DNA of 33,300 bases from Vicinamibacterales bacterium (GTDB lineage Bacteria; Acidobacteriota; Vicinamibacteria; Vicinamibacterales; Fen-181): NCBI GenBank assembly GCA_029974175.1, contig JARKSS010000312.1, positions 1 through 33,300 on the forward strand, written 5' to 3'. A program made the translations under genes and the position numbers. Below, in pieces: positions 7,653 to 10,029 of the stretch. Positions within the stretch are counted from its first letter, which is position 1. Each line of letters starts with the position of its first letter. Under the pieces are notes generated by a model. That model ran no database searches and was not told the DNA's origin. It saw only the letters and a list, made by a program, of their open reading frames with translations.

Positions 7653-8129
7653 ATGGCCGAAGCAGCAGGCTCGTCGATGGCGGAGGGCGGCAGGGAACAG
7701 GACAAGGGCGGCGAGGGCGTGCGGGAAGAGGCCGTGGTCCGGGCACACCGGGGTTTCTTCCCGGTGGTCTACGGCCACGACGTCGAGGTCAAGCAAGGCG
7801 GCGGCGCCTTCCTCATCGCCAGGGACGAACTGGAGATCGAGCAGGGAGGCGGGCAGTGCATGATTGGCCTGCGGAAGCTCGAGGTCGAGCAGGGCGGCTG
7901 CGCGGTCATGGTGGCCGGGCGGGCCGAGGTGAAGCGAGGCCTGATCGGAATCCTGCTGGCGGCGAACGCCGAAGTGAAAGAGGGCAGCCGGGTGCTCATG
8001 ACCGCGCCGCAGGCCATCGCGGCCGGCATCGTGGCGGGTGCGGTCGTGGCGCTGGCCAGGCTGCTGGGAGACCGACGCGATCGCCGCCGGCTGCGCGAGG
8101 TTGCCGGCAGCACCACGCCGGGAATCTAG
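7653..8129 (+). CDS. Hypothetical repeat protein with C-terminal hydrophobic segment
   Basis: Strong purine RBS (GAAGGAGAGAGAGGAGAG) upstream of ATG 7653; about five 14-17-aa imperfect repeats (VEVKQGGGAFLIA / LEIEQGGGQCMIG / LEVEQGGCAVMVA / AEVKRGLIGILLA / AEVKEGSRVLMTA) then AIAAGIVAGAVVALARLL and a basic tail. Confidence 0.7.
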   Translation: MAEAAGSSMAEGGREQDKGGEGVREEAVVRAHRGFFPVVYGHDVEVKQGGGAFLIARDELEIEQGGGQCMIGLRKLEVEQGGCAVMVAGRAEVKRGLIGILLAANAEVKEGSRVLMTAPQAIAAGIVAGAVVALARLLGDRRDRRRLREVAGSTTPGI

Positions 8130-8249
8130 CAGGTTGCTGTGAAGAAAGAAGCCTGCGATGCAATAGGAAAAATGGAGAATGAAGAAAGGGCATGTTTCTA
8201 CATTTTTCCCTCTTGCATTTCAGGCCGCGGTTCTTCAGCGGCCTGCTAG
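8126..8249. mobile_element. 124-bp foldback MITE-like palindromic element
   Basis: Terminal inverted repeats CTAGCAGGttGCTGtgAAGAA (8126-8146) and TTCTTCAGCggCCTGCTAG (8231-8249). Nested inner inverted repeats GCCTG/CAGGC, ATGCAA/TTGCAT, GGAAAAATG/CATTTTTCC. Locally AT-rich relative to flanks. Confidence 0.72.
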
Positions 8250-8271
8250 CTCCGGGGCGAGGCCCCGGCAG

Positions 8272-8301
8272 TTGACAACCCCGGCCCGTCGCTGCTACCG
8301 T
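8272..8301 (+). promoter_or_regulatory. Putative trp operon promoter
   Basis: TTGACA (8272-8277), 18-nt spacer, TACCGT (8296-8301); upstream of the leader ORF. The -10 is weak. Confidence 0.4.
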
Positions 8302-8321: not shown

Positions 8322-8456
8322 GTGACGATCCGCTTCCGCCTCTGCTCGTCGCCCTGCCTGCCGGCCCTGCCCGCCGGCCTCGGCGTCGATCTGCGCGGGA
8401 GCGCGGCCGCCGGCAGCGCGTCCTCTTCGTGGTGGTGGCGGAACTCCATCCACTGA
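8322..8456 (+). CDS. trpL: Putative trp operon leader peptide
   Basis: GTG-initiated 44-codon frame ending ...A S S S W W W R N S I H stop (TGG TGG TGG at 8430-8438, TGA 8454-8456), directly upstream of an intrinsic terminator and trpE. The start codon is uncertain; the Trp run, stop and terminator geometry are the evidence. Confidence 0.72.
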   Translation: MTIRFRLCSSPCLPALPAGLGVDLRGSAAAGSASSSWWWRNSIH

Positions 8457-8493
8457 GGGGCCCGTGTAGACACAACTCGAGCAGAGCGTTCTC

Positions 8494-8531
8494 AAGAGCC
8501 TCTTCAGCGGACAGCGCTGAAGGGGCTTTTT
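8494..8531 (+). terminator. Intrinsic terminator/attenuator upstream of trpE
   Basis: AAGAGCCTCTTCAGCG-GACAG-CGCTGAAGGGGCTTTTT: about 16-bp stem (two G-T wobbles), 5-nt loop, followed by a T-run (8527-8531, then GTTT). Confidence 0.85.
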
Positions 8532-8562
8532 GTTTGTACGGCAGAAACAGGGATCGCCGGTT

Positions 8563-10029
8563 ATGACCATGACCACCTTCGAGGAGTTCGCCCGGCTGGC
8601 ACGCGAGGGTTCGTTCGTGCCGGTCTGCAAGGAGCTGATGGCCGACCTGCTGACCCCCGTCTCGGCCTTCCTCAAGGTCGCCGAGTACTCCGACTACGCG
8701 TTCCTGCTCGAGAGCGTCGAGGGCGGCGAGCACGTGGCCCGGTACTCCTTTCTCGGCAAGGACCCGCTGCTCGTGCTCCGCGCCGACGGCGACCGCACGG
8801 TGCTGGAGCAGGCCGGCGAGACGAAGGTGTCTGCCCACACCATCGTCGAGGAGTTGAGGCGCGTGATGGGGGAGTACCGCTCCCCGTCGGTGCCCGGGCT
8901 TCCACGCTTCACTGGCGGCGCGGTCGGCTTCCTCGGCTATGACGCCGCCGGCTGGTTCGAGCCGGCCGTTCGCCGCGCGGGCGAGGGTCCCATCCCGGCC
9001 GTCTTCATGGTGTTCGACACGATCCTGGCGTTCGACCACGTCCGGCACCGCATCCTCGTGATCGCGAACGCCCGGGTGACCCCCGGGGCCGACCTCCAGG
9101 CGCTGTACCGCTTCGCGTGCGCCCGGATCGACTTTCTCGAGCGCGAGCTGGCGCGCGAGGTGTCCACGCCCGAGCCGCCTGCGGTGTCACCCCTGGTGCC
9201 GCGCCCGAACGTGTCGCGCGAGGAGTTCGAGCGCGGCGTCCGCGCCGTGCAGGCCCACATCGCCGAGGGCGACATCTACCAGGCCGTCCTCTCGCAGCGG
9301 TTCGACGTCGAGACCGCCGTGGATCCCTTCCGCGTCTACCGCGCACTCCGCCACATCAACCCCTCGCCGTACATGTTCTTCGTCCGGGCGGGACGGACGG
9401 CGGTTGCCGGGGGTTCGCCCGAGATGCTGGTGCGCGTCGAGGGCGACCGGGTCGAGACGCACCCGATTGCCGGCACCCGCCCGCGCGGCCGCGACGAGGA
9501 AGAGGATGCCCGCCTGGCCGCAGAGCTGGCCGCGGACGAGAAGGAGCGTGCTGAGCACGTGATGCTGGTGGACCTCGGGCGAAACGATCTCGGGCGCGTC
9601 TGCGAGTACGGCTCGGTGCGCGTGGCGCAGCTGATGGGGATCGAGCGCTACTCGCACGTGATGCACCTCGTGTCGGTCGTCGAGGGGCGGCTGGCCCCCG
9701 GCCGCGATCGGCTCGATGCCCTCGCCGCCTGCTTCCCGGCCGGCACCGTGTCGGGCGCGCCCAGGATCCGCGCCATGCAAATCATCGACGCGATCGAGCC
9801 GTCGCGCCGCGGCGTCTATGCGGGCGGCGTCGGATACGTGGATTTTGCCGGAAACCTCGACTTCTGCATCGCGATCCGGACGGTGGTGCTGGAGGAGGGC
9901 CGCGCCTCGGTCCAGGCCGGCGCCGGCATCGTGGCCGACTCCAATCCCGCGGCGGAGTACGAAGAGTCGTGCGCGAAGGCGCGGGCGCTGCTGCAGGCGC
10001 TCGAGGCCGCCGCGTCGAACGAGTGGTAG
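8563..10029 (+). CDS. trpE: Anthranilate synthase component I
   Basis: FTGGAVGFLGYDAAGWFEP, GDIYQAVLSQRFDV, INPSPYMFFVRAG, GSPEMLVRVEGDRVETHPIAGTRPRG, DLGRNDLGRVC, FPAGTVSGAPRIRAMQIIDAIEPSRRGVYAGGVGYVDF; first gene of a contiguous trp cluster. Confidence 0.97.
   Translation: MTMTTFEEFARLAREGSFVPVCKELMADLLTPVSAFLKVAEYSDYAFLLESVEGGEHVARYSFLGKDPLLVLRADGDRTVLEQAGETKVSAHTIVEELRRVMGEYRSPSVPGLPRFTGGAVGFLGYDAAGWFEPAVRRAGEGPIPAVFMVFDTILAFDHVRHRILVIANARVTPGADLQALYRFACARIDFLERELAREVSTPEPPAVSPLVPRPNVSREEFERGVRAVQAHIAEGDIYQAVLSQRFDVETAVDPFRVYRALRHINPSPYMFFVRAGRTAVAGGSPEMLVRVEGDRVETHPIAGTRPRGRDEEEDARLAAELAADEKERAEHVMLVDLGRNDLGRVCEYGSVRVAQLMGIERYSHVMHLVSVVEGRLAPGRDRLDALAACFPAGTVSGAPRIRAMQIIDAIEPSRRGVYAGGVGYVDFAGNLDFCIAIRTVVLEEGRASVQAGAGIVADSNPAAEYEESCAKARALLQALEAAASNEW

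Follow-up and report, generated by a model that had tools for sequence, protein, structure and literature searches.

A palindromic segment that separates a stop codon from the trp control region in a Vicinamibacterales genome is very probably a non-autonomous IS5-type MITE

Structure of the locus

The window (i.e., the whole stretch of DNA analyzed; 33,300 nucleotides, positions 1–33,300 of contig JARKSS010000312.1) contains a forward-strand ORF (7653–8129) with a predicted product of 158 aa, in which QGG-type repeats are followed by a hydrophobic segment and a basic tail. No Pfam family was found for this product, and no homologue among the 161 other genomes of the order. The ORF stops at a TAG (8127–8129) inside the CTAG that opens a palindromic segment (8126–8249), and this segment ends 22 bp before the putative trp TTGACA (8272–8277), as an earlier note on this DNA had stated. 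The arms listed in that note are all present: the outer pair CTAGCAGG/CCTGCTAG and, on the inside, GCCTG (8151–8155) with CAGGC (8221–8225), ATGCAA (8158–8163) with TTGCAT (8213–8218), and GGAAAAATG (8166–8174) with CATTTTTCC (8201–8209), enclosing the proposed loop of about 26 nt (8175–8200, exactly 26 nt). Folded as single-stranded DNA, positions 8126–8249 reach -32.2 kcal/mol, compared to -15.2 ± 2.6 kcal/mol for dinucleotide shuffles (n = 200; 0 of 200 as good; z = -6.5). The palindrome is thus real, but the 124 bp given for the element included its outermost CTAGs, which we assign to a target duplication, leaving an element proper of 116 bp (8130–8245).

The non-coding element (8130–8245, forward strand) is flanked by the left (8126–8129) and right (8246–8249) CTAG, neither of which carries a strand. 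Its left terminal inverted repeat (8130–8146, forward strand; CAGGTTGCTGTGAAGAA) matches insertion sequence (IS) ends (CAGGTTGCTGAAAAA), and CCTG just inside it (8152–8155) can pair back with this repeat as an end hairpin. The interior (8156–8218, forward strand) consists of arms with a 7-bp period around the 26-nt loop. The right terminal inverted repeat (8221–8245, reverse strand) is itself a hairpin, in which CAGGCCGC (8221–8228) pairs with GCGGCCTG (8238–8245). Each end forms its own hairpin with a CTAG foot, and the 8-bp stem of the right-end hairpin is kept across copies.

Directly after the right CTAG and before the TTGACA lies a perfect 7-bp G+C hairpin (CCGGGGC-GAG-GCCCCGG; 8250–8268) that has no T run. 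Further downstream, a candidate trp attenuator (8322–8533) was found just before trpE (at 8563). A GTG at 8322 opens its putative leader peptide ORF of 44 codons (…SSSWWWRNSIH*), in which three Trp codons stand in a row, and behind this ORF lies a 16-bp hairpin that, with its T run, resembles a terminator (8494–8530). The candidate attenuator had no match in Rfam.

A dispersed family of diverged copies

The genome that holds the window is a 3.79-Mb Acidobacteriota MAG (83% complete, 539 contigs). Searching it with the segment gave 33 alignments at about 28 distinct other places, dispersed over the genome, so that the single-copy alternative allowed for in the earlier note does not hold. The 26 near-complete copies yielded a 118-bp consensus (mean pairwise identity 83%), to which the window copy is 84% identical. 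Their flanks are CTAG on both sides, or CTAG with decay on one side. Some right ends stand alone, and short doublets of roughly 46–64 bp occur as well.

A palindrome selected as an RNA structure, for example one that guards the upstream mRNA at its 3' end or insulates the trp promoter, would account for the strong fold and for its position, with a stop codon on one side and the trp control region on the other. Comparisons among the copies make this explanation improbable: compensatory change was found at only 1 of 21 consensus pairs, the copies adjoin unrelated genes, and no terminator-like site lies within the element. A conserved structured RNA was likewise rejected, because covariation is nearly absent and the Rfam matches are at chance level and below the gathering score. 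The element family is old in this genome, given that its copies have diverged, that the assembly yielded no matching transposase, and that the palindrome decays with almost no compensation.

Beyond this MAG, the right-end hairpin is present in 14 of 162 genomes of the order (own genome counted). One relative, G065, has about 70 matches to it; the sampled copies are nearly identical, most of them belonging to one of two size classes (131–136 and 145–147 bp), and in their right-end hairpin a C-to-T change on one side is matched by a G-to-A change on the other (CAGGCTGC/GCAGCCTG). Kinship with G065 places the MAG among the gp6 Acidobacteriota. One G065 copy (L115; C69, about 155–290) is central in a ~29-bp inverted repeat formed by its flanks (cgttccacgttgtgtcagtccgacgcg/cgcgtcggattgacacaaggtggaacg) and looks as though it had inserted into a hairpin loop. 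A genome of another acidobacterial family (G236) contains ~48-bp elements that consist of little beyond two facing ends (CTAGCAGGGTGCTGAAGAA; e.g., C2:4945–4992), and the end sequence was matched 44 times in that genome. Copies were also found on a contig filed under Candidatus Eisenbacteria (L164, VBOT01000206.1); these copies and their flanks are common to a contig of acidobacterium gp6 AA50 (L144, QHWF01000459.1), and the former contig is probably mis-binned.

Ends shared with IS5-family insertion sequences

When the end sequence alone was searched over 396 Acidobacteriota genomes and viral (IMG/VR) contigs, CAGGYYGCTGAARAA ends were found in pairs 1.26–1.36 kb apart that enclose a transposase gene, both in relatives and in IMG/VR contigs. 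Complete IS with the same ends occur within the order (L238, L193, L223, L224, and others), including one of 1280 bp with perfect 22-bp inverted ends (L238; CTAGCAGGTTGCTGAAAAACGA). Their transposases match NCBIfam NF033581 (IS5_4) at 254–291 bits (cut-off 140) as well as Pfam DUF772 and DDE_Tnp_1. The suspicion in the earlier note that the ends are IS-derived is borne out by these elements. An autonomous IS with the same ends was thus located in relatives and IMG/VR contigs, but not in the MAG itself, in which (at 83% completeness) no IS5_4 match was detected. Many MITEs have an autonomous partner in their own genome, although such a partner is not a strict part of the definition. G065 does encode an IS5_4 transposase (L283), but a search of its surroundings yielded none of these ends. 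Between the element interior and the IS found nothing is shared; the ends alone are alike.

The target duplication is read from the IS copies, since CTAG at the window copy is self-complementary and, taken alone, a duplication of it is indistinguishable from a longer inverted repeat. Where the IS flanks are not self-complementary, left and right are the same tetranucleotide (CTAA/CTAA in L193, L254, and L266; GTAG/GTAG in L269), and we therefore interpret CTAG/CTAG at the window copy as an IS5-type 4-bp target duplication at YTAR. This corresponds to the target of E. coli IS5, Py-T-A-Pu and most often CTAG (PMC5493358); a YTAR target is also given in PMC10359306. An IS630/Tc1-mariner MITE with a TA duplication at CTAG was rejected, because the partner transposase belongs to the IS5 family and the CTAA and GTAG duplications are 4 bp long.

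The end hairpins raised a different origin, a REPIN-like element in which two REP hairpins are inverted relative to each other and moved, without target duplication, by a single-strand (HUH, Y1) RAYT transposase. REP/REPIN systems with RAYTs have hairpin ends with a four-base foot and exist as solo and paired units (PMC3733652), and the small end hairpins, solo ends, and short doublets described here are similar. They differ in that the REP foot is a GTAG or CGTC tag, with GTAG units linked to Y1 transposases (PMC3733652), whereas the foot in the present family is CTAG, with decay products. The MAG has no Y1 transposase, none of the 26 Y1 loci in 13 relatives has such ends nearby, and IS5-family DDE elements that duplicate 4 bp of target have the same ends. 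A REPIN/RAYT origin was accordingly rejected and is, in our assessment, very improbable. The segment is short, non-coding, multi-copy, and dispersed, has terminal inverted repeats in common with complete IS5_4 elements, and lies in a CTAG/YTAR target duplication; we conclude with high confidence that it is a non-autonomous IS5-type MITE with a YTAR target.

Insertion at stop codons

According to the earlier note, the element supplies the stop codon of the upstream gene from its left terminal repeat and may have truncated the protein. The coordinates of the TAG and its role as the stop were correct, but it belongs to the target duplication and not to the element proper. As the TAG is part of the duplicated tetranucleotide, the upstream gene ends at the same codon in the inferred empty site (...GGA ATC TAG CTC...; single-CTAG form GGAATCTAGCTCCGGGG).

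The family recurrently inserts in this manner. A coding-like frame stops exactly at the duplication TAG in 14 of 26 sites of the MAG (2 in each of the other registers), and G065 shows the same bias (18 of 40 sites; 4 and 1 in the other registers). CTAG is about five-fold depleted in the examined loci, and 20–26% of the CTAGs other than element ends are themselves such stop codons, so that the bias is largely explained by target choice; loss of intragenic insertions may explain the remainder.

Truncation of the upstream gene by an insertion that brought a new stop codon is very improbable in light of this recurrence. The TAG does sit at the edge of a repeat unit, and the upstream protein has no homologues for comparison. 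Under the IS5-type duplication model, however, the TAG was in the target before insertion, and at a comparable G065 site the element-free orthologues in three relatives have C-termini that lie no more than two residues from that of the G065 protein. The C-terminus of the upstream protein, with its hydrophobic segment and basic tail, likewise does not appear to be cut off.

Heptamer-repeat interiors

The 7-bp period of the interior is clear over the 26 copies (lag-7 identity 0.50, z = 23; z = 4 for the window copy alone) and recurs in both G065 size classes (0.52 and 0.48; z = 28 and 11). Across lineages, the interior heptamers vary and the end hairpins remain similar. Tandem arrays of the GGGGCTA type are frequent in the MAG (G000; e.g., C214:36–170, C51:6565–6650, C345:2722–2772), and some copies of the element sit within them. 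Periodicity of 7 bp is modestly enriched in the flanks of the copies, and 5 of 26 copies have a clear array there (p = 0.017). In the C226:743–766 region of the MAG (L036), we observed a heptamer-type palindrome (AATGGAGAATGTAGAAAGGGGG/CCCCCTTCTACATTCTCC) that lacks element ends and resembles a free-standing relative of the MITE core. Taken together, the 7-bp period, the heptamers that differ by lineage, the arrays that hold copies, and the end-less core suggest that element interiors were assembled from host heptamer arrays.

A broader model, to which we give somewhat less than even weight, is that gp6 Acidobacteriota carry one modular MITE family. A single pair of hairpin-forming IS5-type ends would have been joined to a different interior of 7-bp repeats in each lineage; the ends would be kept for transposition and the interiors rebuilt from host heptamer arrays, with insertions landing on stop codons and on CTAG-bearing arrays.

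Discussion

In the history that we propose for the window copy, an IS5-family DDE transposase would have bound the terminal repeats (CAGGYYGCTGAARAA) and inserted the MITE into a CTAG tetranucleotide, duplicating its four bases. As CTAG is rare in this 69% GC genome and often located at gene ends as ...C-TAG, the stop codon of the gene that precedes trp would have served as the landing site. The original stop would survive in the left CTAG and the original downstream DNA with the right one, and the upstream protein and the trp leader would consequently be unaltered in sequence. The copy is presumably immobile at present. The most economical account is that of an inert and decaying insertion beside, and not inside, the trp control region, although the element could conceivably influence expression.

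As far as our literature search shows, the family is new to this lineage, although elements of its kind are well known. MITEPsy1 of Pseudomonas syringae is similar in being about 100 bp long and non-coding, with IS5-like ends and insertion at CTAG or YTAA with a 4-bp duplication, whereas its end sequence is different and its transposition was caught experimentally; the accessible part of its description does not report a heptamer-built interior or end hairpins (PMC3189936). BrickBuilt and MITE464/PgRS of Porphyromonas gingivalis share IS5-type ends, a tandem-repeat interior unrelated to an IS, and about 20 copies per genome with the window family, and BrickBuilt thus provides a precedent for an IS5-type MITE with such an interior (PMC4596501). 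Their repeat units are 23 and 41 bp, compared to 7 bp here, and they have no uniform target duplication and are intergenic, 49–591 nt from genes, not on stop codons (PMC4596501). The IS5_4-type IS of Acidobacteriota (L238, L193) have the same ends and YTAR target as the window MITE but are 1.26–1.36 kb long, encode a transposase, and lack end hairpins. The heptameric G-rich repeats of Xanthomonas and Nostoc are intergenic 7-bp tandem arrays like the GGGGCTA arrays described here, and in those two genera such arrays form quadruplexes (PMC4692102). Those heptamers are generally without mobile-element association (PMC4692102), whereas some CTAG-containing arrays here hold copies of the element and other heptamers build its interior.

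What merits the attention of specialists is the placement on stop codons and the interior built of heptamers. In a GC-rich, CTAG-scarce genome, an element that targets CTAG/YTAR frequently lands on TAG stops and leaves the proteins intact. Such insertions can mislead annotation, in the form of apparently truncated genes or of stops seemingly supplied by the element. The related family in G065, with its dozens of near-identical copies, is well suited to studying the origin of MITE interiors from short tandem repeats.
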